In this document: positions 18,178-35,957 of the stretch, in pieces
Layout: each line of letters starts with the position of its first letter
Numbering within the stretch: the first letter of the stretch is position 1
Virus record (IMG/VR): IMGVR_UViG_3300047319_002135
Coordinates: 1 to 36,489 of that record
Reading direction: 5' to 3' (one strand)
Source of the DNA: a virus
Length of the DNA: 36,489 nucleotides
The notes under the pieces: generated by a model
Databases searched by the model: none
Told to the model about the DNA's origin: nothing
Seen by the model: only the letters and a program-made list of their open reading frames with translations
Program-made: the position numbers and the translations under genes

Positions 18178-19964
18178 CAACATCTTCTGACAGTTTCAGA
18201 AATGTTACGAGATATCAAGGACAAGATTATCGTTTTGTTCCTACTTATCTTCGTCCTAGAGATCCTCATTCTCCCACAAGCGCATCTAATGATATCAAGC
18301 CGAAAGAGCAACAAGGTTATTATCCAGTCACTAGTCTTTGGACCAATAGTACCAATGGAAATATTTGGGCTCTTGCTGGAATTGTCAATAATCTAGCTAA
18401 CTGGGTAATGCTTTCAGGGGGATCTTCTGGGCCTCTTTTAAATATCACTGTTCCTAATGGAACATCTCCTATTGTTCCTGATGGACTGGGTACAATGCAT
18501 TTCACTTCTAATGCTGGAACAGTTGTCATCACAGGATCTAGTGCATCTCCAAATAATCATACAATTAATTTTGATGTTTTAGGAGGAGCCAATCCTATTG
18601 AGAAAATAACTGGTGATGATTTAGTCGTAGTAGTTCCTGATGCAGGTGGTAATATCAATCTTCAAGGATTGGTAGTTGCTAATGGCACACATGCTAAAGC
18701 TGTTTTTACTGAATCACCGATTGCGAACACCGAAAAAATTGATATACAAGTATCCGCAGCAATTGCAGCAACAGATATTACTAAAGTTGGATTGGCAGAC
18801 TTTCGAAATACTCAATTTACTGTTGATGCTAATGGTTTTGTTTCATTAGTTGGAGGAACAACTCCTGCTATTCTTACAGAAACAGCAGATACAGGAGGTG
18901 CCGTCTCACCAGATGGAAGCGGAAACATCAATCACTTTGGTGGAAATAACATCATCACTACAGGAAATCCTGGCACACATACTATCTCATATGCAACTGG
19001 AACTCAATTTGGTATATCAAATATTGGATTCACTCAAAGTGCAGGAACGACTTTCACTGTAGAAAGTGCAAGTGGTGCCGCATTTAGTTCTACCAATCCA
19101 GGTTTTGTAACTCTTCAAAGCTTTGCAAGTCCTGGTCTTCAGGTAAATTATAAAGTCACAGCTAATCAATCTTTTACGCAAGCAAATATTGCGACAAATA
19201 ATTTTGGATTGACAAATGGAGTGGCTAATGCAAATGATATTCCATTTTTTCTATATGCTGTAAGTAATGCTCAAAATGGTGAAAATACAATTGCTTTTAT
19301 GATCAGCCGATTTCCAAATGCAAAAGTTTCTCCAGTAGCAGCTAAAATAGGAAAAACTGGATCTGCAGTTGCAAATTCTCAAGGATCCTTTTTTAGTTTA
19401 GCTAATGTTACCGTTGCAGATTATGCACAAAGTCCTTGTCTTTGTATTGGAAGTTTTAGAATGACTTGGACAGCAGGAAACAATTGGGTAATCACAACAA
19501 TTGATGATGAAGATGGTGTAGGATGTTTCCAAGAAAATCGCGTATTTAATGTTTCAATTGGACAGTTTGGTGCTGCATCTGGTAAATATTTTTATAATAA
19601 TGGAGGCACTGCTCCAGGATTTGCTTCAGTTTCTTATGTTTATTATATTGATAAACAGAACTTCTTAAAATTTTATGCTTCTTTTTTAGATCCTAGTGGT
19701 AGTGCTGGGGCAGGGGCTGTTATTCTACAATTAGCTTTACCTTATGTTGTAAATGGAAATTCTGCTGGAACTTTCTGGTCTACAACAGCAGGTCCTACAT
19801 TTATTGCCGGAGCAACAGTAGTTGTTAATCCTTCCTCTGTAAATAAAATAGAATTTGATTTTTCGGCACCAGCAAGTTTGCATAGCACTTTAAATAATAA
19901 TAATTTTACAGGAGCCACAGATTCATTAGCTCCTTTTGGTCTTGTTCCTATTCTTTATTCATAA
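18174..19964 (+). CDS. Large tail-fibre/receptor-binding protein
   Basis: 596 residues. The N-terminal 90 residues (RYQGQDYRFVPTYLRPRDPHSPTSASND and YYPVTSLWTNSTNGNIWAL) resemble the attachment part of the fibre gene at 16069. Two related shaft blocks follow: DDLVVVVPDAGGNINLQG near 145 and TADTGGAVSPDGSGNINHFGG near 240, each followed by an FTVDANGFVSL- or TISYATGTQFGI-type strand. The C-terminal 270 residues form a different, aromatic-rich beta domain, probably the host-binding tip. Its end overlaps the convergent GT92 gene by 17 bp. Confidence 0.76.
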   Translation: MTTSSDSFRNVTRYQGQDYRFVPTYLRPRDPHSPTSASNDIKPKEQQGYYPVTSLWTNSTNGNIWALAGIVNNLANWVMLSGGSSGPLLNITVPNGTSPIVPDGLGTMHFTSNAGTVVITGSSASPNNHTINFDVLGGANPIEKITGDDLVVVVPDAGGNINLQGLVVANGTHAKAVFTESPIANTEKIDIQVSAAIAATDITKVGLADFRNTQFTVDANGFVSLVGGTTPAILTETADTGGAVSPDGSGNINHFGGNNIITTGNPGTHTISYATGTQFGISNIGFTQSAGTTFTVESASGAAFSSTNPGFVTLQSFASPGLQVNYKVTANQSFTQANIATNNFGLTNGVANANDIPFFLYAVSNAQNGENTIAFMISRFPNAKVSPVAAKIGKTGSAVANSQGSFFSLANVTVADYAQSPCLCIGSFRMTWTAGNNWVITTIDDEDGVGCFQENRVFNVSIGQFGAASGKYFYNNGGTAPGFASVSYVYYIDKQNFLKFYASFLDPSGSAGAGAVILQLALPYVVNGNSAGTFWSTTAGPTFIAGATVVVNPSSVNKIEFDFSAPASLHSTLNNNNFTGATDSLAPFGLVPILYS

Positions 19965-20805
19965 ATCTTTCCATAATTCTGTCTTCTTCTTGATTCATTT
20001 CAATACTTCCTTTTCTAATGTTTTCTTCAGTTAAAACACCCCATTTTTTTGCTCTTGGGATTTTGACTTCATTTAAATATTTTTCATCCCTTGTCCAATA
20101 ATGATTAAGACGAATTTTATCAATGTACACACCTGTATTTTCAATTATTATTTTTTCTAAATTCGCATTCACATGATAATGAGGAAAATTATAATTGCAA
20201 AAATGAGGATTATTGCAATTTACAACAAAATTAGGTCTGACAATCGATTTGAATTTAAAATTTGTTGAGTGATTAGTCGGCATTTTATACATAAGGTTTT
20301 GTAACATGGATTCATTTTCTTTTATTTCATATATATTGGAAGTTCCATACATCTGCCAATTTATACATAAACCCGTAACATGAGGATAATGTTTTTCCAA
20401 AACATCAATTACATTATATTCACAAACCGGCACAATAAATTCATCAAGATCTATTAATGCTAACCACTTAGTTTTCCCCCTTGATCTTGTCAATGAGTCA
20501 TTATAGGCAGAAACCTGGGTATTGAAAGTATAATGAAACCAATTATTTGCTTGTTCATATGAAGGCCATTCAATTAATTCTACAATACCTTCATTAATAT
20601 ATGGGTTCAAAACATCACGAAAATTATCTGTGCTATTGTTATTATAAAGCCAAAAATGTTCAATGCCAACTGATCGATGAAAATCTATCCATTCTTTCAT
20701 AAATCTTGATTCGTTTTGAAAAATTGAACAAACAGAAAGTTCATAAGCATTCCCTTTAGAAAATATAAGATGAAAAGCAACGATAAGCATTGTTAAATAT
20801 TTCAT
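19948..20805 (-). CDS. Secreted or envelope GT92 (DUF23)-type glycosyltransferase
   Basis: 285 residues from ATG 20805, chosen because AAGGA sits 6 bases before it; an in-frame ATG at 20859 would bury the signal peptide. Residues 1-20 (MKYLTMLIVAFHLIFSKGNA) form a signal peptide or anchor. The GT92/DUF23 signature follows: VCSIFQNESRFMKEWIDFH (25-43), GIEHFWLYNNNSTDN (47-61), and the metal-binding DLDEF at 119-123. Later PHYH and LNHYWTRDE elements fit the family. It would transfer sugars outside the cytoplasm. Encoded against the fibre operon, it is a likely moron altering the host surface or a host-cell target. Confidence 0.82.
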   Translation of the reverse strand: MKYLTMLIVAFHLIFSKGNAYELSVCSIFQNESRFMKEWIDFHRSVGIEHFWLYNNNSTDNFRDVLNPYINEGIVELIEWPSYEQANNWFHYTFNTQVSAYNDSLTRSRGKTKWLALIDLDEFIVPVCEYNVIDVLEKHYPHVTGLCINWQMYGTSNIYEIKENESMLQNLMYKMPTNHSTNFKFKSIVRPNFVVNCNNPHFCNYNFPHYHVNANLEKIIIENTGVYIDKIRLNHYWTRDEKYLNEVKIPRAKKWGVLTEENIRKGSIEMNQEEDRIMERFMNKE

Positions 20806-20870
20806 AATTTTCCTTGATAAAACATAATCATTTTTGTATATTAAAAATAAAATAAACAATTGGGGTTTTT

Positions 20871-21050
20871 ATGGCAGCAAAAAAAGTAAAGGGTAAGGCT
20901 AAAATCAAGAAAGTAATGGAAGAGTATAAAAAAGGGGAATTACATTCTGGTTCTAAAATGGGTCCAAAGGTCACAAATCCTAAGCAAGCGATTGCTATAG
21001 GATTATCAGAAGCACGAAAATCCGGAGCTAAAATTCCTAAAAAGAAGTGA
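20871..21050 (+). CDS. Small basic protein, DUF6496-like
   Basis: 59 residues, Lys-rich. The pattern GELHSGSKMGPKVTNPKQAIAIGLSEARKSG is that of the short DUF6496-type proteins found in many phages and bacteria. The length agrees with the family. It starts 65 bp from the divergent GT92 gene and begins a three-gene rightward set ending at 21466. The role of the family is unknown; a nucleic-acid-binding or virion-filling peptide is possible. Confidence 0.75.
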   Translation: MAAKKVKGKAKIKKVMEEYKKGELHSGSKMGPKVTNPKQAIAIGLSEARKSGAKIPKKK

Positions 21051-21264: not shown

Positions 21265-21466
21265 AATTATTTTAACTATCCCTTTGGTTTTTTTGCCATC
21301 ATGTGGACATATTGCTGAATTTGCAAAAATGTCTTCTGAAATAGATTTTGAGCATTCTTCAAAACAAAAAGAAGACGACAATAACATGAATTTTAATGTT
21401 GATGTCGTCCATAAAAGATTACCCTTATTTCTAGAAAAAGATTACGATTTTTTAGAAAGCCATTGA
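21257..21466 (+). CDS. Small putative lipoprotein, 69 residues
   Basis: The N-terminus (MNKIILTIPLVFLPSCG) is a short hydrophobic signal with a lipobox-like LPSC at 13-16; the remainder is acidic and polar. Small lipoproteins in phages can be outer spanins, but no inner spanin partner with a clear anchor is next to it: the upstream gene lacks a membrane segment. It could also be a superinfection-exclusion lipoprotein. Its end overlaps the convergent bet gene by 25 bp. Confidence 0.55.
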   Translation: MNKIILTIPLVFLPSCGHIAEFAKMSSEIDFEHSSKQKEDDNNMNFNVDVVHKRLPLFLEKDYDFLESH

Positions 21467-22200
21467 TTAAATACACTTTCAGTATAAGCAGGATCTTTTT
21501 TAAAGCTTTCTATACATTTAGAAAAATCCCATTTTCTTTCTTTCATTAGCTCATCCATGAATATTTTGAATTTATCTTTTTTATCTCCCCATGTATTTAA
21601 ATACATTTCAACATTTTCCAAAGATAATTCGTTTTTATCTTGAATTTCTACCTGAGGCTCTTCGATAACGGAAGCTTGACCCATTTCCTCGAAGGTATAA
21701 ATACCAGAAAGATTGGCTGGAAACGCTTTTCTAAGTGCTAAAGCTTCAGCACATTTAGCTAATTGATTATGAGGCATTCTTAACCAAAAACTAGAAGGCT
21801 TTCCATCAAATTTTTGTACGTATTCGGAATAAAAAGCTGTAGCACATACTTCATGCCAAGTTCCATCAGATGTTTTCTTTTTCACATAAGCTGTGGCTGA
21901 AATAAGATTTTTATTATCATCATATTGATAAGAAGGCTCTTTTCCTGGAGAATAATTTTCTGTTCTTTCTGCAATGAGGCGATAGCCATCAATACCTGTT
22001 TGAATGGTCATCGCATTTCCTCTTTTAATCGCATAAATTTGCTTCATAAAAGGATCTAATCCTGTTCTTACACAGGCATGAAGAAATAATTGAAGTTCAT
22101 CATCTGATGATCCTTTGCATACCGTTTGCTTGAGCAATGCGATTTTCTCATCAGAGAAATCTAGAAAATGAACTTTTTTATTTTGTAATAGAGCAGTCAT
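21442..22200 (-). CDS. bet: Single-strand annealing protein, Bet/RecT type
   Basis: 252 residues. LFLHACVRTGLDPFMKQIYAIKR (about 39-61), MTIQTGIDGYRLIAERT (about 65-81), a WHEV...AFYSEYVQ middle and MPHNQLAKCAEALALRKAFP (about 146-165) are hallmark motifs of phage Bet proteins. They anneal complementary strands during replication-linked recombination, partnered by a 5'-3' exonuclease, here encoded just upstream. AAGGA lies 6 bases before ATG 22200. Transcribed leftward like lambda exo-bet. The C-terminal 85 residues are variable and may contact host proteins. Confidence 0.92.
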   Translation of the reverse strand: MTALLQNKKVHFLDFSDEKIALLKQTVCKGSSDDELQLFLHACVRTGLDPFMKQIYAIKRGNAMTIQTGIDGYRLIAERTENYSPGKEPSYQYDDNKNLISATAYVKKKTSDGTWHEVCATAFYSEYVQKFDGKPSSFWLRMPHNQLAKCAEALALRKAFPANLSGIYTFEEMGQASVIEEPQVEIQDKNELSLENVEMYLNTWGDKKDKFKIFMDELMKERKWDFSKCIESFKKDPAYTESVFNQWLSKKS

Positions 22201-23523: not shown

Positions 23524-23742
23524 ATGAAAGATATTTACGATTTTATTAAATCATTTGATCTTCATACAATCATCGTTGTCGGAATTGCTTTTTGGTGGAT
23601 GAATTCAGGAATGAATGAACAATTCAAAGAAATTCGATCTGATATTTCCGAATTAAAAACGGATATACGGGTCATTAAAACTATTCTTGTCATGAAAGGA
23701 ATTATGCCTCAGGAAATGTGCAAAACTTCCGAGGAAAAATAA
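23524..23742 (+). CDS. Single-TM coiled-coil microprotein (D), first rightward early gene
   Basis: 72 residues with AAAGGAAG upstream. A hydrophobic stretch at about 14-27 (HTIIVVGIAFWWMN) is followed by a heptad coil (NEQFKEIRSDISELKTDIRVIKTIL). Same plan as the microproteins at 15451, 15730 and 27273. It is coupled by TAATG to the HTH gene, so it is expressed from the early promoter, which argues for a role in establishment, exclusion or regulation rather than late lysis. Function unknown. Confidence 0.66.
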   Translation: MKDIYDFIKSFDLHTIIVVGIAFWWMNSGMNEQFKEIRSDISELKTDIRVIKTILVMKGIMPQEMCKTSEEK

Positions 23743-23948
23743 TGGATTTAGGTCTTTATCTTTACAAAAATAAAATTACAGTAAAAAAATTTAGTGAAAT
23801 TTTGGAATGTTCGCGTCCACATCTTTCTGATATTATTCATGGAAGAAGAATTGCTGGTAAAAGACTGGCAAAGGATATTGAAGAAGCCACTGAAGGGCAA
23901 GTCAAAGCTAAAGATCTACTGAAGAAAAAATCCCACGATATAACATAG
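23742..23948 (+). CDS. HTH regulator, Cro/CI-like (XRE type)
   Basis: 68 residues starting at ATG 23742 (TAATG overlap, GAGG ahead). The helix-turn-helix covers VKKFSEILECSRPHLSDIIHGRRIAG (about 12-38), then a helical tail (KRLAKDIEEATEG). Its small size, lack of a C-terminal dimer/protease domain and place right after the early promoter make it more like Cro than CI. It likely binds the dyads in 23398-23466. No second, larger repressor is visible, so this may be the only immunity regulator. Confidence 0.8.
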   Translation: MDLGLYLYKNKITVKKFSEILECSRPHLSDIIHGRRIAGKRLAKDIEEATEGQVKAKDLLKKKSHDIT

Positions 23949-23999
23949 CCAAAGAAATGGCGCTATCCAAACAAGCCATAATTCCTCAAGAATATTCAT
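23916..23999 (-). CDS. Tiny membrane peptide, 27 residues (possible)
   Basis: Begins by ATGA overlap with the stop of the 40-residue peptide gene upstream and reads NILEELWLVWIAPFLWLCYIVGFFLQ in outline: one Trp-rich hydrophobic helix. Its last 33 bp run antisense to the end of the HTH gene. The coupling of two hydrophobic peptides is suggestive, but frames this short arise by chance. Confidence 0.35.
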   Translation of the reverse strand: MNILEELWLVWIAPFLWLCYIVGFFLQ

Positions 24000-24118
24000 A
24001 ACAACATTCCAAATAGAATTACTAACAAGCAAAGAATAAACAAAAACGTGAAAGTAATTATTTTAACATCAGAATATTCTTTAATTGCGTCGTAAATTTC
24101 ATTCCATACATTTTTCAT
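23996..24118 (-). CDS. Small membrane peptide, 40 residues (possible)
   Basis: ATG 24118 to TGA 23996. A polar amphipathic start (KNVWNEIYDAIKEYSDVK) leads into one transmembrane helix (IITFTFLFILCLLVILFGMLL spans it). The polar-then-hydrophobic shape resembles toxic type I toxin peptides, small holins or YkgO-like membrane peptides. No clear Shine-Dalgarno is seen before it. It occupies an otherwise empty 430-bp gap between the HTH gene and the next rightward gene. Confidence 0.42.
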   Translation of the reverse strand: MKNVWNEIYDAIKEYSDVKIITFTFLFILCLLVILFGMLL

Positions 24119-24211
24119 TTTTACACAAAAAAGCATTACGTTTTAAGAGAGAGTTACTTCTCTTTTATATATATAAAATTATTTAAAGCAAACGATTATT
24201 TTATTATTTTC

Positions 24212-24240
24212 TTGAAAAGTTTTTTTTAAAACTTTATATA
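24212..24240 (+). promoter_or_regulatory. Strong promoter before the junction RNA
   Basis: TTGAAA (24212-24217), exactly 17 bp, TATATA (24235-24240), followed by TG. The start point should fall at about 24246-24248, just at the 5' edge of the paired element that begins at 24251. An AAGAGA/TCTCTT hairpin followed by T-rich DNA lies upstream near 24150 and could isolate it from earlier transcription. Confidence 0.68.
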
Positions 24241-24246
24241 TGATTA

Positions 24247-24347
24247 AAAAAAAAGCAGTCAGGTGTACGTCAATACACCCAACCGCAGCAAAAAACACAC
24301 GCATTTAAATTATCACGTGCTGCAAATTTAATTCAAGACTGCTTTTA
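24247..24347 (+). ncRNA. Three-way-junction RNA candidate (sRNA or leader)
   Basis: About 100 nt that fold on inspection into a closed three-way junction. P1 is AAAAGCAGTC (24251-24260) with GACTGCTTTT (24337-24346), 10 perfect pairs. P2 is GGTGTA-cgtcaa-TACACC (24262-24279). P3 is GCAGCA (24285-24290) with TGCTGC (24318-24323), optionally extended by CACG/CGTG. No reading frame fits it. A good promoter starts at its 5' edge, and P1's 3' side ends in four T's. It may be a free small RNA, or a leader controlling the gene at 24381, whose ATG is 35 nt further on. Confidence 0.6.
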
Positions 24348-24380
24348 TAATTAGAATAATAATTGTAGGAGTATGTCTTC

Positions 24381-24674
24381 ATGCATAATTTTCAAGAATA
24401 TCCCCCGTACTTATATCTTACACAAGTTTTAGATCATTGCCCAAAAGCTGGATCTACCTATATGAAAATCTGGCATAAACGCGACAGAAATAATGAAGTA
24501 CGGGTTGTGAAAAAAAATGTCTATTCTGAATATCTAACTTCATTAGCAAAGTTTAGACATGATCTTTTAATGCTTATTAGAGAATCACTTATAAATATCG
24601 ATGAATCTCCTAACGAAATACACATCGAATTAGTCAACTGGGAGATCGATGCAGAAGGACAAACTTTATGCTGA
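24381..24674 (+). CDS. Small early protein, 97 residues
   Basis: AGGAG lies 10 bases before ATG 24381. It contains GSTYMKIWHKRDRNNEV and a helical FRHDLLMLIRESL region, ending HIELVNWEIDAEG. Similar short proteins sit between the regulator and initiator genes of many phages, but I know no function. It overlaps the next gene by 7 bp. It is preceded by the structured element at 24247-24347, whose product may be a cis leader for this gene. Confidence 0.7.
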   Translation: MHNFQEYPPYLYLTQVLDHCPKAGSTYMKIWHKRDRNNEVRVVKKNVYSEYLTSLAKFRHDLLMLIRESLINIDESPNEIHIELVNWEIDAEGQTLC

Positions 24675-25024
24675 ATATTCACTATTGCCAAACTTGTGCT
24701 AAGAAAGTTCTAGAACATAGCCATTTTGCTTTATTTGTTTATCAACAGATTTGTGATCATTTTCTTCAAAAAAATGATTTTTGGGAAATTTTCGATATCA
24801 ATGACGTTTCATCCAATGACATATTTGATGTGCTCTCATTTTTGGAAGAGAGGAAATTTATCATCACAACTGAAAGCAATATTGACACTCTTAAAATCAA
24901 ACCAAATGGCGTAAAAATATTAAATCTTCTTACAAATAAAAAGCACGTTTACAATTACTCAAAGAAAAAAAAGCCTCAATATTGTGAATATGAAATTTGC
25001 GTTAAGGATGGCATACATGATTGA
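24668..25024 (+). CDS. Small winged-helix-like early protein, 118 residues
   Basis: Starts inside the previous gene. It has CQTC near the N-terminus (residues 7-10), then helices and FDINDVSSNDIFDVLSFLEERKFIITTE, a helix-turn-strand shape like a winged helix, and a basic tail. It occupies the place of lambda cII. Whether it regulates transcription is inference only. It ends 40 bp before the leftward terminator of the OOP-like RNA candidate. Confidence 0.62.
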   Translation: MLNIHYCQTCAKKVLEHSHFALFVYQQICDHFLQKNDFWEIFDINDVSSNDIFDVLSFLEERKFIITTESNIDTLKIKPNGVKILNLLTNKKHVYNYSKKKKPQYCEYEICVKDGIHD

Positions 25025-25063
25025 GACATTGACAAGAGGGGAGTTTTTTGGTAATGTCGCGAT

Positions 25064-25093
25064 GAAAAAGAAAAACCCGGTTAGCTTCCGGGT
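25064..25093 (-). terminator. Leftward rho-independent terminator
   Basis: Six-bp GC-rich stem ACCCGG/CCGGGT with a 7-base loop; on the minus strand it ends in TTTTCTTTTTC. The plus-strand side has only TCTTTC, so leftward use is far more likely. No leftward protein gene ends here, which implies a non-coding transcript. Confidence 0.8.
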
Positions 25094-25146
25094 CTTTCAA
25101 CGAACATTATCGCAGATTCTAGCTACGATACCAGTAACAACAATAC
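25064..25146 (-). ncRNA. OOP-like antisense RNA candidate
   Basis: On the minus strand an intrinsic terminator is clear: ACCCGG-aagctaa-CCGGGT (25093-25075) followed by TTTTCTTTTTC (25074-25064). A promoter candidate, TTGCAT (complement of 25176-25181), 18 bp, TAAGAT (complement of 25152-25157), would start an RNA near 25145 of about 80 nt. It lies between the small gene in the cII position and the O-like gene, the same place, direction and length as lambda OOP RNA (77 nt). A perfect TTGACA at 25029-25034 might drive opposing transcription. The terminator is solid; the RNA is inferred. Confidence 0.55.
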
Positions 25147-25170
25147 CTCGTATCTTAGCTAGTATCCTGC
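25112..25170. repeat. 59-bp imperfect dyad before the initiator gene
   Basis: GCAG(25112-25115), CTAGCT(25119-25124) and GATAC(25127-25131) are mirrored by GTATC(25150-25154), AGCTAG(25157-25162) and CTGC(25167-25170) around an 18-base centre. It occupies the gap before the O-like gene and overlaps the proposed OOP-like promoter. It may be a replication-protein or regulator binding site, or an RNA hairpin in either transcript. Confidence 0.7.
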
Positions 25171-25194
25171 ATTTCATGCAAGGAGAAGTTAGCT

Positions 25195-26244
25195 ATGTCT
25201 GAAAAACGTTTCATAAAATCTATAGATTCTGAAGAAAGCGAATGGCTTGCTGAAAAGTATCCTTTTGCATTTCTTCTTCTTTGGAAAATTGCCATAAGAG
25301 CTCGACGATATTCAGGACATCCAGATGGATTACAAGTAGGGGATGCAATAATTGGAGATCCAAAATCCACTGGAATGAGTAGACAAAATTATCGAACGGC
25401 TATCAAAAAACTTGTCGAGAAAAAATTTATAAAAATCATTTACAATGGCAAAAAATTTATTGAACGCGAAAAATCAACCATCAAACTAACCATCAAAGGT
25501 ATGATCGTAAACATACTAGATTCAAGGATATGGGATATAAATCCAGAATCATCTAACCATCACATCAACCAACAGCTAACCAACAGCCAACCAACAGCTA
25601 ACCATAAACAAGAAAGAATAAGAAAGAATAAGAAAGAAATAATAAGAATAGCTCAGACCGATTTGGATGAGATAGATGCAACGTCTGATAATATAGGAAG
25701 AGGAAGCTCTCAGTCGGCTCCGCCGCTTCGAGCAAAAATTTCAGATATTCATTTTTCATTCGAAGAAAGAAGATTTCAAAACATCACAGACCAAGATTTA
25801 GAAGCTTGGAAAATTGCCTATCCCGCAGCAGTTGTCAGCCAAGAACTTCTTCGCATGGGAGAATGGTGCTTGTCAAATACAGCCAAAAGCAAAAGCAAAA
25901 AGCAGTGGAGAAAGTTCATAACTAATTGGCTATCAAGGTCAAACGAAGAATCTATCAACAAAGCAGCTTGGAAAAAGCAAAGTTTCAATGGAACTTCTCA
26001 CGAAATTTCTCCAGAAAATAGGCTTTTTTCTGAAACGATTTCAAAGCTATATTTCTCGGAAAATTGGAAACTAGAAGTTTTATCAAGTTATGTTTTTATT
26101 TCTGGTTCTGGCAATCATCCTGGTTATACACTCAACTACTCAGAAAATGGATTCAAAGAGCAATTAAAGAATTTGTTGATAAAAACGGGTTTCAAGCAAA
26201 AAAGAGAACAAAAGATTCTATCCATAAATTCTAATGCCGTTTAA
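25195..26244 (+). CDS. Replication initiator, lambda O-like
   Basis: 349 residues, AAGGAG 9 bases ahead. Residues 1-110 look like a winged-helix DNA-binding domain (FLLLWKIAIRARR; GMSRQNYRTAIKKLVEKKFIKI). A Gln/Asn/Lys linker (about 120-160) is encoded by frame-shifting iterons. Residues 195-250 (ITDQDLEAWKIAYPAA; WCLSNTAKSKSKKQWRKFITNWLSR) are the C-terminal domain common in phage initiators, which recruits helicase machinery. As in lambda O, the origin lies within the gene. No lambda P-like loader is seen nearby, so host helicase loading may be used directly. Confidence 0.8.
   Translation: MSEKRFIKSIDSEESEWLAEKYPFAFLLLWKIAIRARRYSGHPDGLQVGDAIIGDPKSTGMSRQNYRTAIKKLVEKKFIKIIYNGKKFIEREKSTIKLTIKGMIVNILDSRIWDINPESSNHHINQQLTNSQPTANHKQERIRKNKKEIIRIAQTDLDEIDATSDNIGRGSSQSAPPLRAKISDIHFSFEERRFQNITDQDLEAWKIAYPAAVVSQELLRMGEWCLSNTAKSKSKKQWRKFITNWLSRSNEESINKAAWKKQSFNGTSHEISPENRLFSETISKLYFSENWKLEVLSSYVFISGSGNHPGYTLNYSENGFKEQLKNLLIKTGFKQKREQKILSINSNAV
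25567..25650. other. Probable replication origin: iterons inside the initiator gene
   Basis: Three tandem 11-bp units AACCAACAGC(T/C) at 25567-25577, 25578-25588 and 25589-25599 plus a partial AACCA, then three 10-bp units AAGAAAGAA(T/A) at 25610-25639 and an AT-rich stretch (AATAATAAGAATA). Unit lengths of 11 and 10 are not multiples of three, so successive copies are read in different frames: the repetition is conserved as DNA, not protein. Iterons followed by an A/T-rich purine-biased block within the O-like gene match lambda ori. Confidence 0.78.
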
Positions 26245-27785: not shown

Positions 27786-28202
27786 ATGGCAGCACCGAAA
27801 GGTAATCAGTACGCATTAGGAAATAATGGAGGAAGACCTCGAGAGTGGGATCGTCAGGAAGAAGCTAAAGCACTCTTGGAGTGGGCCTCTCAAGAGGATG
27901 CTCTAGTTTTAAGGAAGTTCGCACCCTTAAGAGGATATCCTCCTGAATATCTCTGGGAATGGGAGCAAACTGATCAAGAGTTTTCCAATGCTATTAAGAA
28001 AGCAAGAGCAATGATCGGCGCAAGACGAGAGGAACTACTCATTCAAGGAAAAGGAAATGCCTCTCCATTTCATCGTTATGCAGCACTCTATGATCCACAG
28101 CTTAAATCACATGAAAAAGAGATGAAACAAGCTGAAATTGATAACAAGCAATATGTTTTAGTTAAAGAAACTCCATTCGATCAATCTAAAAAAGCCGAAT
28201 GA
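27786..28202 (+). CDS. Terminase small subunit
   Basis: 138 residues from ATG 27786, chosen because AAAGGA precedes it; an upstream ATG at 27762 lacks a site. It begins AAPKGNQYALGNNGGRPREWD, the common start of phage small terminases that choose DNA for packaging. A helical region (WEWEQTDQEFSNAIKKARAMIGARREELL) and GKGNASPFHRYAALYDP near 100-117 follow. It overlaps the large-subunit start by 4 bp (ATGA), as expected for partners. Which end-cutting mode (cos or headful) is used cannot be read from it. Confidence 0.85.
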   Translation: MAAPKGNQYALGNNGGRPREWDRQEEAKALLEWASQEDALVLRKFAPLRGYPPEYLWEWEQTDQEFSNAIKKARAMIGARREELLIQGKGNASPFHRYAALYDPQLKSHEKEMKQAEIDNKQYVLVKETPFDQSKKAE

Positions 28203-29557
28203 ATCAACCTGAAAATCGTATTAAGATTCCTTATCAGTTCAAATGCCGTGATTATCAAATTCCGGCTTGGAAAGCACTTGACGAGGGTAAAAAGCGCGTG
28301 GTGTGCTGTTGGCACAGGGGTGCCGGCAAAGATCTTTTTGCCCTCAATTATCTGATATGGCGGATGGTAGAATTTCCTGCCGTCTATCTTCACTGTTTCC
28401 CTAAGTATAATCAAGGTAAACGTGCAATCTGGAATAGCGTTCATCAGACAGATGAAGGCCATGCTATGTCCTATCTTGATCATTTCCCAAAAGAGATTGT
28501 AAAGTACAAAAATAGCTCAGATATGCGCCTTGAGCTTACTAACGGTTCAATTTATTGCGTGATGGGAATTGATGGAAAGAATGCCACACAAGCTCGTGGT
28601 ATGAACCCAAGCTTTATTATTCTATCAGAGTATGCCTACATGGATCCTGAAAGCTGGTATACCATAGAGCCTCGTATATCACAGAACAATGGAACTGCTT
28701 TATTTTTAAGCACACCAAACGGCCAGAATCATTTCTATGATTTATTTAACTACGCACAATCTGGACACAAACCAGATTACTTTTCAAGCAAGTTAACTAT
28801 TGAAGATACTAAGGTTTTAGAAGAAGATCATCTTGATAAATTGAGATCCGAGGGCATACCAGAAGACTTTATTCTTCAAGAATACATGTGTGATTTCAAA
28901 AGGGGAGCAGAAGGTTCATATTATGGGAAACTTATTCAAAGCGCTCGTGATGATAATAGAATATATAATGCTAGAATTAATCTCGATCTTCCTTGTCATA
29001 CTTCTTGGGATATCGGCATTGGCGACAGCAGTGCTATATGGATTTTTCAAACTCTCCTCAACGGTACTACAGTCTTTTTGCACTATTATCAAAATAATAA
29101 TGAAGGATTAGAGCACTACATTCGATATTTAGATCGCTGGAAAGATGCCAACAAAGCTGTGTGGGGAACACATTACGTTCCACATGATATGAAAAATAGA
29201 GAATTTACCTCCGGTGTTGATCGATTGAGCGCTGCAAGAAATATGGGCTACAATATGACAATTGTGCCAATGAAACTCATTGAAGAGGGGATTCAAGCTT
29301 GTCGATCATTAATTCCCCATTGTTCATTTCATGCAACAGAGTGCAAGAAGGGGATTCAATGTCTTGATATGTATCACAAAAAGTGGAATGACAGTTTGAA
29401 GGTTTATTATGATGAACCATTGCATGATCGTTGGAGTCATGGTGCTGATGCATTTAGGATGGCAGCAATTGGGATTAAGGCATTAGGAACTCAGACGACG
29501 CATAAGCTATCGGCTGATTCGATTAAAGAAATGAGACAAAGGAATTTAGGGTATTAA
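28199..29557 (+). CDS. terL: Terminase large subunit (packaging ATPase/nuclease)
   Basis: 452 residues. The Walker A-type motif WHRGAGKD is at 38-45, the Walker B FIILSEYA at 139-146 (catalytic Glu144) and the coupling motif LFLSTPNG near 164-171. The RNase H-like nuclease starts near 270 (TSWDIGIGDSS) and continues to a final HDRWSHGADAFR near 418-429. The protein cuts concatemers and pumps DNA through the portal. The length is normal. The Ser before the Walker B Glu is common in this branch and not a defect. Confidence 0.93.
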   Translation: MNQPENRIKIPYQFKCRDYQIPAWKALDEGKKRVVCCWHRGAGKDLFALNYLIWRMVEFPAVYLHCFPKYNQGKRAIWNSVHQTDEGHAMSYLDHFPKEIVKYKNSSDMRLELTNGSIYCVMGIDGKNATQARGMNPSFIILSEYAYMDPESWYTIEPRISQNNGTALFLSTPNGQNHFYDLFNYAQSGHKPDYFSSKLTIEDTKVLEEDHLDKLRSEGIPEDFILQEYMCDFKRGAEGSYYGKLIQSARDDNRIYNARINLDLPCHTSWDIGIGDSSAIWIFQTLLNGTTVFLHYYQNNNEGLEHYIRYLDRWKDANKAVWGTHYVPHDMKNREFTSGVDRLSAARNMGYNMTIVPMKLIEEGIQACRSLIPHCSFHATECKKGIQCLDMYHKKWNDSLKVYYDEPLHDRWSHGADAFRMAAIGIKALGTQTTHKLSADSIKEMRQRNLGY

Positions 29558-31399: not shown

Positions 31400-32149
31400 A
31401 TGGAGCAAATAGAGAAAACAAAAGAATATGGAAAGTTTAAATTTCTCGACGGAAATAGACCCATCGATAAATATCACGTAAAGAAATTAAAACAGTCTAT
31501 CGAAAAGTCAAATCATCTCAATCTTCATCCAATAATCATTAATCATAATTATGAAATTATCGATGGACAGCATAGACTAGAGGCCGCTAAGCAACTTGAT
31601 GTAGAAATATTTTTCATAAAATCTGGTCTAGTCAATGACGATCATTTAATCGATTGTAATGTCAATCAAAAATCATTTGATGTTGAGAATTACATTGATT
31701 ACTTTGCTATCAAGGAGAAAAAATCCGAATACATTCTACTCAAGCAAATGCTGAAATCTTCTGGATTAAAACCGAAAGCACTTCTGACGCTAATATTAGG
31801 AACTGTTAGCAATAGTATATTAGAATTTTTAAAAACAGGAAAATTTAAATTTCCTTCTAGTGAAGAACCAAATCAAGTATTGAATTTCTATTTTGATTTT
31901 TCATCTTATGTGAAGGATAAACGGCTAAAACCTTTTAGTATGTTTACCAATCACAATTTTACAAGATCTTTGCGCTGGTTATTTAAAACAAATGGTTTTG
32001 ATTCTGTTGTTTTTTTCAAAAAGCTTGATATGCGCTGGTTTGATTTAAAACCTCAGAGAACAGCTGAAGAATGGTATGAGTTATTAACATCAATATATAA
32101 TTACAAAAATCACAATAGGATTGAAGCAGAATATGGGATTACGTCTTGA
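31400..32149 (+). CDS. ParB/sulfiredoxin-fold protein
   Basis: 249 residues, with AAAGGAGAGG upstream. The ParB-like motif IIDGQHRLEAAKQL lies at 53-66, preceded by a KLKQSIEKSN helix and NLHPIIIN strand. This fold is a CTPase or nucleotide-binding module. The rest (about 95-249) is helical with no clear parS-binding HTH. It lies over 5 kb from parA on the circle, so it is probably not the partition partner; phage genes of this type act as transcription or DNA-modification regulators. Overlaps the next gene by 17 bp. Confidence 0.76.
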   Translation: MEQIEKTKEYGKFKFLDGNRPIDKYHVKKLKQSIEKSNHLNLHPIIINHNYEIIDGQHRLEAAKQLDVEIFFIKSGLVNDDHLIDCNVNQKSFDVENYIDYFAIKEKKSEYILLKQMLKSSGLKPKALLTLILGTVSNSILEFLKTGKFKFPSSEEPNQVLNFYFDFSSYVKDKRLKPFSMFTNHNFTRSLRWLFKTNGFDSVVFFKKLDMRWFDLKPQRTAEEWYELLTSIYNYKNHNRIEAEYGITS

Positions 32150-33854: not shown

Positions 33855-35957
33855 ATGACGTGGCCTACTTCAAATCCTGTTGCTAGGGAGTTAGATGATT
33901 TCTGGAAAGAAAGTCAGGCGCTTTGGCAGCAATGGTGGTATGAAGCTGATTTAGATACTAAGATGGCCACAGGTCAACAGGATTATTGGAATACCTTCTA
34001 TAACGTCAATTATCGAAATCAAAAGATGTTGATGTTCAATAAGATCCTTCGCATCATTAATATGATTGGGGGATATCAGCGCGACAATCGATTAGCCACT
34101 ATTGTATCTCCAGGCGATAACGATCCTGACACAGGCCAAACAGCAGATCAACTTACAAAAGTTCTTAGCTGGGTTACAAGAAAAGATGGAACCTACGAAA
34201 AAATATCGGAGTGTTTCGATGGAGCCAATACATGTGGTCTTAATCTGCTTAATGTATGGATGGATTTTAGAGAAGATCCTGAAAACGGAGAAATAAAAAC
34301 TGATCGCATCCCTTTCAATTCTTTCTTAATGGATAACTATTGGACTAAGCCTGATTTATCTGATTGCAATCGAATCTGGACAAGAAAATATATCACAACG
34401 AGACAATTAAGAAGCCTTTTTCCAAAGATTGAAAAAGATCTTCCCTATCTTGGCAAAGGATATGCTGCAAAGGATGGGAAATTTCAATTCTTAGCTCAGA
34501 ATTGGTATCAATATCAGCAGGAAATGTACGCTTATGATGAGTATTGGGTAAAAGATTATAAGGAAGTTAGAAAACTTCTAGATAAGGCGACAGGTGAGAC
34601 TGCTGATTGGAAGGGGACTAAGGAGCAATTTCAGCTTTTAAAGCGTTTTAATCCGAATGTTGAATTAATCAAAGCCTCTGTTCCGACTGTTAAACTGCAT
34701 GTCTTGGTAAATAACCATCTTATTTATGAAGAAAAATCTCCATATGGTCTTGATCGATTTCCCTTTGTCCCATTTATTTGTTACCATTATCCAGAAGTGC
34801 AAAATTATGCTTATCGTTATCAAGGAGTAGTGAGGAATATACGTGATTCGCAAATTGAGCTCAATAGACGGCGAAACAGACTCTTGGATATCATGGATGC
34901 GCAAATCCAATCGGGTCTTATGGTCAAAGAAGACGCCCTCGTCAATCCTGAAGATGCTTTCATGCAAGGACCGGGTAAGGTTCTATATTTCAAGCAATCC
35001 GCCAATCTTGCATCAGATGTTGCACCAATTCCGCCGCCTCCAGTTGCACAAGGATGGATGGAGCTCATTCAAACGATTGAAAAAGAAATCATGGACATTG
35101 TTGGACCAGAAGAGCTCTTTGCACAAAATCTTGGCGCACAAGATATGTCTGGAATCATGATGAAGTTAAAAATGGGAGCAGGTCTTACAGGACTCAGAAA
35201 TATCTTTGATAGACTTAATCAATCGCAAATGTTAGTGGGCGATATCATGTTAGATATGGTTCAAAATAACTTTGGGATTGGAAAAGTTGCAAAGATAATA
35301 GGAGAAAGACCAACTGAGGAATTCAATCAATCTTGGATGACTAAATATACCTGTGCAACAGAAGAGGCTGAACTTACAACATCTCAAAGACAGCTTCAAT
35401 TCCTTCAAGCGATGCAATTTAAGAAGATGGGAATACCTATATCAAATAAATACTTGATTGAAAAGAGCACTCTGCAAGGTAAGAAACAGATCATCGAAGA
35501 TATCATGCAGCAAGAAAAGCAAGCAGGACAAATACAACAAATACAAATGCAACAGCGGCTTGAACATGACGAGATTCTTACTAGATCTTTGGAAGCTAAA
35601 GCTCAAAATGATTTTGCAGCTGCAGAAGAGAGGAGAGCACGAGCAACATCAGATATTGCTCTTGCAAAGGAAAGAACATCTCAAGCAGTGCATGATAGAG
35701 CATCTGCTGCCTTGGATAATGCTAAAGCATTTAAAGAATTGGAAAGCATCGAAGAGGATCGCTTAATTAAACTTGCAAACTTTGTAGTTGATCTCCAAGC
35801 ACGTCAAAAACAGCTTCAAGGTGGAGAGGAAGAAGATTCTATTCAAGAAGCATTAGCTTTAAGCTTACCTGTTGAGCAGTCTAAAGCTGAAAGCAAACCT
35901 AAAAAAATGCAACTTCCCCAACAACCCTCTGGTTTATCCCAGGCTATTTCTCAATAA
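33855..35957 (+). CDS. Portal protein, P22-like
   Basis: 700 residues. The wing/stem region includes YWNTFYNVNYRNQKMLMFNKI and RIINMIGGYQRDNR (about 44-82), FDGANTCGLNLLNVWMDF (about 116-133) and YAYRYQGVVRNIRDSQIELNRRRN (about 316-339), typical of P22-like portals. Residues 500-660 are a long Gln/Ala/Glu coil (QQEKQAGQIQQIQMQQRLEHDE; AAAEERRARATSDIALAKER) like the helical barrel of P22. A Pro/Gln tail ends it. Twelve copies form the DNA channel. Unusually it is separated from terL by 4.3 kb and from the capsid gene by cargo and partition genes. Confidence 0.9.
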   Translation: MTWPTSNPVARELDDFWKESQALWQQWWYEADLDTKMATGQQDYWNTFYNVNYRNQKMLMFNKILRIINMIGGYQRDNRLATIVSPGDNDPDTGQTADQLTKVLSWVTRKDGTYEKISECFDGANTCGLNLLNVWMDFREDPENGEIKTDRIPFNSFLMDNYWTKPDLSDCNRIWTRKYITTRQLRSLFPKIEKDLPYLGKGYAAKDGKFQFLAQNWYQYQQEMYAYDEYWVKDYKEVRKLLDKATGETADWKGTKEQFQLLKRFNPNVELIKASVPTVKLHVLVNNHLIYEEKSPYGLDRFPFVPFICYHYPEVQNYAYRYQGVVRNIRDSQIELNRRRNRLLDIMDAQIQSGLMVKEDALVNPEDAFMQGPGKVLYFKQSANLASDVAPIPPPPVAQGWMELIQTIEKEIMDIVGPEELFAQNLGAQDMSGIMMKLKMGAGLTGLRNIFDRLNQSQMLVGDIMLDMVQNNFGIGKVAKIIGERPTEEFNQSWMTKYTCATEEAELTTSQRQLQFLQAMQFKKMGIPISNKYLIEKSTLQGKKQIIEDIMQQEKQAGQIQQIQMQQRLEHDEILTRSLEAKAQNDFAAAEERRARATSDIALAKERTSQAVHDRASAALDNAKAFKELESIEEDRLIKLANFVVDLQARQKQLQGGEEEDSIQEALALSLPVEQSKAESKPKKMQLPQQPSGLSQAISQ

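Follow-up and report, generated by a model that had tools for sequence, protein, structure and literature searches.

The stretch of DNA analyzed here, hereafter the window, is virus record IMGVR_UViG_3300047319_002135 at its full length of 36,489 nt. It encodes a terminase (28199 to 29557), a portal protein (33855 to 35957), a major head protein, and a phage exonuclease, along with ParA (818 to 1465, plus strand) and ParB (31400 to 32149), and no integrase was found among the 30 window proteins scanned. The phage is best read as a ParA/ParB phage-plasmid. The element under study lies about 2 kb from the RecT gene (21442 to 22200, minus strand), in a region where the leftward RecT operon is followed by an XRE-type repressor gene (23718 to 23948, plus strand; phrog_35), the element itself, and genes that start at 24381, 24668, and 25195 (rep). 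A sequence-only reading of this DNA had placed the element in a gene-free gap. This holds for the plus strand, where no gene intervenes between the XRE gene and 24381, but a small minus-strand open reading frame at 23996 to 24136 may be real.

Several side observations concern the surrounding genes. The small minus-strand frame encodes a stretch that looks membrane-like (VWNEIYDAIKEY, close to the start of the frame). L061 (MWETIKQMAEDIKADPM) and L068 (MRDVWKEIAEELVRI), two of the related loci described below, seem to have minus-strand frames with a similar start at the corresponding position. A 59-amino-acid frame at 20871 to 21050 (plus strand) is unusually conserved among related phages, with up to 82% identity (in L019). 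Adjoining RecT is a gene for a Family 92 glycosyltransferase (19948 to 20859, minus strand), homologues of which occur in L037, L017, L081, and L082.

The gene directly downstream of the element (24381 to 24674, plus strand) encodes a 97-amino-acid protein that an AlphaFold2 model (pLDDT 89.9; order of elements H-H-E-H-H-E-E) confidently folds as a winged helix. Its best Foldseek neighbors are ArsR-like and CodY winged helices, all of them weak and none reaching an E value of 0.001 or lower; the protein matched no family, and its own family had no match in three host genomes. Single-protein searches of viral contigs with the 24381 and rep proteins returned no relatives, and RecT was therefore taken as the anchor. 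This gave 87 loci with RecT relatives, some of them near-duplicates and most of them uncultured metagenome contigs, which are labeled here with L-numbers. Ten of these phages carry a homologue of 24381, and the second operon gene (24668 to 25024, plus strand; 118 amino acids) is kept next to these homologues. The rep gene (25195 to 26244, plus strand) is a candidate replication initiator, as judged from its position, its homology among related phages (L037, L035, and L008), and one weak family match (phrog_270).

A leader with two mutually exclusive folds

The sequence-only reading described a promoter followed by a three-way junction. A promoter-like TTGAAA-17-TATATA is indeed present on the plus strand at 24212 to 24240 (TTGAAA at 24212 to 24217; TATATA at 24235 to 24240) and predicts a plausible start at about 24246 to 24247, but such sites are no commoner in the AT-rich element region than in shuffled sequence (10 found versus 10.2 expected), and the consensus match by itself means little. 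This promoter-like site adjoins the end of a predicted minus-strand RNA, an arrangement paralleled in L013, L023, and L028, where TATAGT is followed by an A-run.

The junction itself is exact. A 10-bp closing helix, P1, joins AAAAGCAGTC (24251 to 24260), which we call the pre-emptor, to GACTGCTTTT (24337 to 24346), with a stacking energy of -17.1 kcal/mol. It encloses two perfect 6-bp hairpins on the plus strand, namely, GGTGTA-CGTCAA-TACACC at 24262 to 24279 (stems 24262 to 24267 and 24274 to 24279) and GCAGCA/TGCTGC with a 27-nt loop at 24285 to 24323 (stems 24285 to 24290 and 24318 to 24323). The 101 nt from 24247 to 24347 fold at -26.6 kcal/mol, compared with -12.4 ± 2.7 kcal/mol in 200 shuffles, none of which did as well (z = -5.2), which bears out the earlier description of the helices. 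The Rfam covariance models, any for plasmid countertranscribed RNAs among them, gave no match at the gathering score in the window and only chance-level matches at relaxed thresholds; across 12 related loci, they detected one tRNA and nothing else. Searches by DNA similarity found no sequence homologous to the element in phage records or related loci. A structured RNA leader that belongs to no known Rfam class stands as proposed.

The same leader also folds in a second way, which the earlier reading had missed. Because the 3′ strands in the L017 and L061 leaders are tied to the Shine-Dalgarno (SD) sequence, the window's full leader was refolded. The minimum-energy fold of 24247 to 24420 is not the junction. 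Instead, an anti-SD strand (24340 to 24353) pairs with 24360 to 24373 and hides AGGAG (24367 to 24371) in the SD region (24360 to 24380) directly before the ATG at 24381. The 3′ half of P1 and the anti-SD strand overlap as one shared strand (24337 to 24353), and the pre-emptor, anti-SD, and SD strands therefore form mutually exclusive helices. The computed energies of the two states are nearly equal, at -33.5 kcal/mol with the junction forced (ON) and -34.2 kcal/mol with the SD hidden (OFF). When the transcript is lengthened stepwise, the junction remains the favored fold until the end passes about 24382, after which the SD-hidden fold takes over, and a leader shortened by its first 56 nt (24303 to 24420) folds directly into the SD-hiding hairpin. 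The OFF hairpin is not followed by a U-run, and control should thus be translational.

We scored this arrangement with a three-strand test, in which two helices share one strand, the second helix covers the SD, and the weaker of the two is scored against shuffled upstream sequence. None of 200 shuffled versions of the 24381 leader reached the arrangement. Since the junction is one of two states that the mRNA leader can adopt, the free-standing plus-strand RNA of about 100 nt that had been envisaged is not supported; the suggested control of gene 24381 is most likely, and that of copy number probable. Overall, the earlier interpretation is partly supported.

The opposite strand and a second element before rep

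Also absent from the sequence-only reading was the opposite strand. The reverse complement of the junction region folds at -30.5 kcal/mol (z = -3.2) into an uninterrupted stem of 14 bp, three of them G-U pairs, with T9 directly after it. This predicted intrinsic terminator (24246 to 24286, minus strand) sits exactly at the 5′ end of the leader. It would end an antisense, or countertranscribed, RNA of about 57 nt (24303 to 24246, minus strand) whose complement is the initial ~55 nt of the leader. Ending 5′ of the pre-emptor, such an RNA must cover it. A candidate promoter for this RNA, TTGAAT-16-GATAAT (24336 to 24309, minus strand), has 9 of 12 matches, a level that AT-rich DNA reaches by chance. 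Averaged around the terminators, promoter signals show weak peaks only, and for this reason, promoters were not counted as evidence.

A second antisense/leader element with the same layout occupies 25029 to 25195, directly 5′ of rep. Its plus-strand promoter-like TTGACA-17-TAATGT (25029 to 25057; predicted start at about 25063) carries the strongest -35 sequence of the region, TTGACA. Its predicted antisense RNA (25066 to 25143, minus strand) would end at a terminator hairpin (25093 to 25075) with a T-rich tail. In the leader (25119 to 25195, plus strand), the helix CTAGCTA.GATAC/GTATC.TAGCTAG (25119 to 25131 and 25150 to 25162) competes with a hairpin that hides the SD, AAGGAG, at about 25180 to 25185. 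Folding gave -41.4 for the ON state and -37.5 for the OFF state, and the ungapped three-strand shuffle test was not significant for this leader (P = 0.12). The first copy of the layout thus precedes the winged-helix gene of the rep operon and the second precedes rep itself; in L035 and L052, minus-strand terminators likewise lie before both genes.

Recurrence of the architecture in related phages

The switch logic recurs among related phages in unrelated sequence. The 24381-type leaders of 11 phages, the window included, do not align, and only small local groups of leaders do. In L017, a helix of AAAGAGAGGC and GCCTCTTTTT in the corresponding position closes two hairpins, and its 3′ strand shows complementarity to the ribosome site AAGAGG as well. 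L061 pairs GAAAGGTTGGA with TCCAACTTTTC, the 3′ strand of which lies within a hairpin with the SD AGGAGAGG. The pre-emptor helix of L054 comprises 23 nt. In L013, L023, and L028, GAGGAAAGUUC pairs with GAAUUUUCCUC (or variants thereof), and the 3′ strand of this pairing continues into the one covering the ribosome site UUGAGG. The nearest homologues of 24381 by protein, L035 and L053, have no significant switch at the 24381 leader, that of L035 carrying an antisense terminator only.

For a systematic comparison, we scored a rep set of 50 leaders, free of redundancy, each from the first long gene that follows RecT; this set consists mostly of rep leaders and includes some terminase leaders, such that the counts are diluted. 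The control set comprised 260 leaders from the same loci; some genomes are common to the test and control sets. At a three-strand P of ≤0.01, 16 of the 50 rep leaders scored, as opposed to 6 of the 260 controls (Fisher's P = 8e-10), as did 3 of the 11 leaders of the 24381 type (P = 0.004 against the same controls). About two-thirds of the rep leaders fall below significance. Three cases (the window, L017, and L061) had been seen before the threshold, the leader length of 170 nt, and the SD window of 21 nt were fixed; the rep set was scored afterwards, and dropping these three would change its result little. The rep leaders of the window, L013, and L023 had been noticed by eye before that scoring.

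Minus-strand terminators show a pattern of their own. Within -250 to +10 of the rep start, they occur in 21 of 50 loci, compared with 0 to 2 in five rounds of shuffling and none on the plus strand. They are present in 14 of 17 loci with a switch and 8 of 33 others (P = 2e-4), and in the switch loci, they mostly end 1 to 26 nt 5′ of the pre-emptor. L017 and L061 have a switch without a T-tailed minus-strand terminator. Among hairpins picked solely by their Watson-Crick pairs, a choice free of strand bias, and accompanied by a minus-strand T-run, wobble pairs read as G-U on the minus strand in 11 instances and on the plus strand in 1 (P = 0.006).

Further observations were made along the way. 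L013, L023, and L028 have a near-identical leader (with a GACCTG hairpin) before their rep proteins, of which that of L023 is only 21 to 24% identical to the other two, which suggests that recombination moves leaders and rep genes independently, as modules. When more leaders of this group were sought by pattern scan, a single additional copy turned up, and it is identical to the L013 leader. The reverse complement of L013 at about 4240 to 4500 holds two tandem leader elements; the first resembles the rep leader of L018 and L027 and is followed by a short open reading frame (MKSLSKSIRMFYQLRVKKYIVD), while the second is the rep leader proper. Elsewhere in the window, the leader of the 109-amino-acid gene before the portal gene (33309, plus strand) scored P = 0.02 in the three-strand test, and that of parA (818, plus strand) scored P = 0.05.

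Mechanism, known systems, and biological meaning

We propose, as the probable explanation, that the leader is a two-state translational switch under an antisense RNA and provides negative feedback on the replication genes of the phage-plasmid. The element would be the 5′ leader of the 24381-24668 message and probably of rep too. In the nascent leader, the pre-emptor (24251 to 24260) would capture 24337 to 24346, building the junction and leaving the SD free, such that the gene is translated. In the OFF state, 24340 to 24353 would pair with the SD region and conceal the ribosome site. The antisense RNA, running leftward from about 24303 to 24246, would pair with the first ~55 nt of the leader, trap the pre-emptor, and thereby impose the OFF state. 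Its level should rise with gene dosage, and the resulting negative feedback would amount to copy-number control. The two folds, their near-equal energies, the terminator, the recurrence of the layout in relatives, and the co-occurrence of switch and terminator are results of computation; we infer the activity of the two promoters, the pairing of antisense RNA and leader in the cell, and the role in setting copy number.

A switch that does without the antisense RNA, either as a kinetic timer that permits translation before the leader refolds to its SD-hidden form or under the control of a protein, seems unlikely, although the ON state does form first, the two states are nearly equal in energy, and L017 and L061 lack the T-tailed terminator; what it leaves unaccounted for is the T9 terminator exactly at the 5′ end of the window leader and the co-occurrence of terminators and switches across loci. 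We regard as quite doubtful the idea that the minus-strand RNA is the working molecule, be it a trans-acting or an OOP-like small RNA, with the plus-strand junction as its mirror image. The stronger minus-strand hairpin, its T9, and the G-U bias all fit that idea, as does a position before the replication gene that recalls lambda OOP (PMC5869508), but the plus-strand arrangement of P1, anti-SD, and SD is significant by itself and is not explained by mirror symmetry. Very improbably, the hairpins could have no regulatory RNA function and instead belong to a replication origin, which would suit a region preceding a replication gene, or insulate transcription, given that the minus-strand terminator could merely stop stray leftward transcription; neither accounts for the SD switch with its three competing strands or for a terminator that keeps its place immediately 5′ of the pre-emptor. 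A riboswitch, that is, the ligand-binding leader suggested earlier, has in its favor a closed three-way junction and an SD-hiding expression platform, but we rejected it as the least probable explanation since it has no Rfam match and no conserved aptamer core, with L017, L061, and L048 keeping the helices and sharing no junction or loop sequence.

The preferred reading, an antisense-governed SD switch, has counterparts in plasmid biology. In pT181, stem-loop IV holds the ribosome site, and its 5′ arm is the strand for which a pre-emptor competes; binding of RNAI lets stem-loop IV form and ends transcription (PMC5703833). The window resembles RNAI/repC of pT181 in having a predicted antisense RNA to the leader and a pre-emptor that competes for an arm of the SD stem-loop; unlike in pT181, this stem-loop lacks a U-run and is expected to work at the level of translation, and there is no sequence or Rfam match. 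Closest in mechanism is pSK41, one of the RepA_N plasmids of staphylococci, in which an RNAI of ~83 nt directed at the rep leader brings about a stem-loop that sequesters the SD, with translation as the step affected (PMC5703833). The two differ in host, rep family, and sequence, and the tailed-phage operon has the layout twice, the first copy standing before a winged-helix gene. pIP501, of the Inc18 group, combines the XRE-type CopR and RNAIII with a long rep leader that has an antisense promoter at its middle (PMC5703833). The window likewise has a small XRE-type repressor gene upstream, a long leader, and a candidate antisense promoter midway in it, but pIP501 works by transcription attenuation, in contrast to the translational control predicted here.

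Among phages, the nearest parallel by position is lambda OOP, a short antisense RNA that runs leftward to a terminator of its own and is encoded between the cro-side genes and replication gene O (PMC5869508). OOP is antisense to the 3′ end of cII, the gene preceding O, and not to a 5′ leader. Neither predicted RNA of the window is antisense to the 3′ end of an upstream gene in this manner: 24303 to 24246 lies upstream of 24381, and the second ends at about 25066, beyond the point where 24668 stops (25024). To our knowledge, no SD switch has been described for OOP. Mycobacteriophages with parABS maintain an extrachromosomal prophage whose replication depends on a noncoding RNA (PMC7157519); that RNA is thought to initiate replication, whereas the window RNA would control protein expression. 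In the open literature that we searched, there is no description of such switches in phage replication operons.

A RecT relative is present on a Parachlamydia contig, and 6 of 234 genomes of the same phylum carry RecT relatives. These sequence matches make chlamydial hosts likely for the phage group, as a statement about the group and not about the window phage specifically. Phage regulatory RNAs are, as far as we know, almost unstudied in such probable hosts. More broadly, we see an even chance that these leaders represent an undescribed, sequence-diverse class of antisense-governed SD switches over the replication operon of a large environmental group of phage-plasmids that probably infects Chlamydiota, sometimes with two switches in series and possibly choosing between plasmid-like and lytic replication.

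The three-strand test, run against shuffles and control leaders, can find such switches where covariation analysis fails. If the proposal is true, a broad group of phages would have acquired plasmid-style antisense copy control or invented it anew, and Rfam-type searches would miss it because the layout is conserved but the sequence is not. The element would also allow one to test directly how phage-plasmids maintain their copy number and how they leave the plasmid state.
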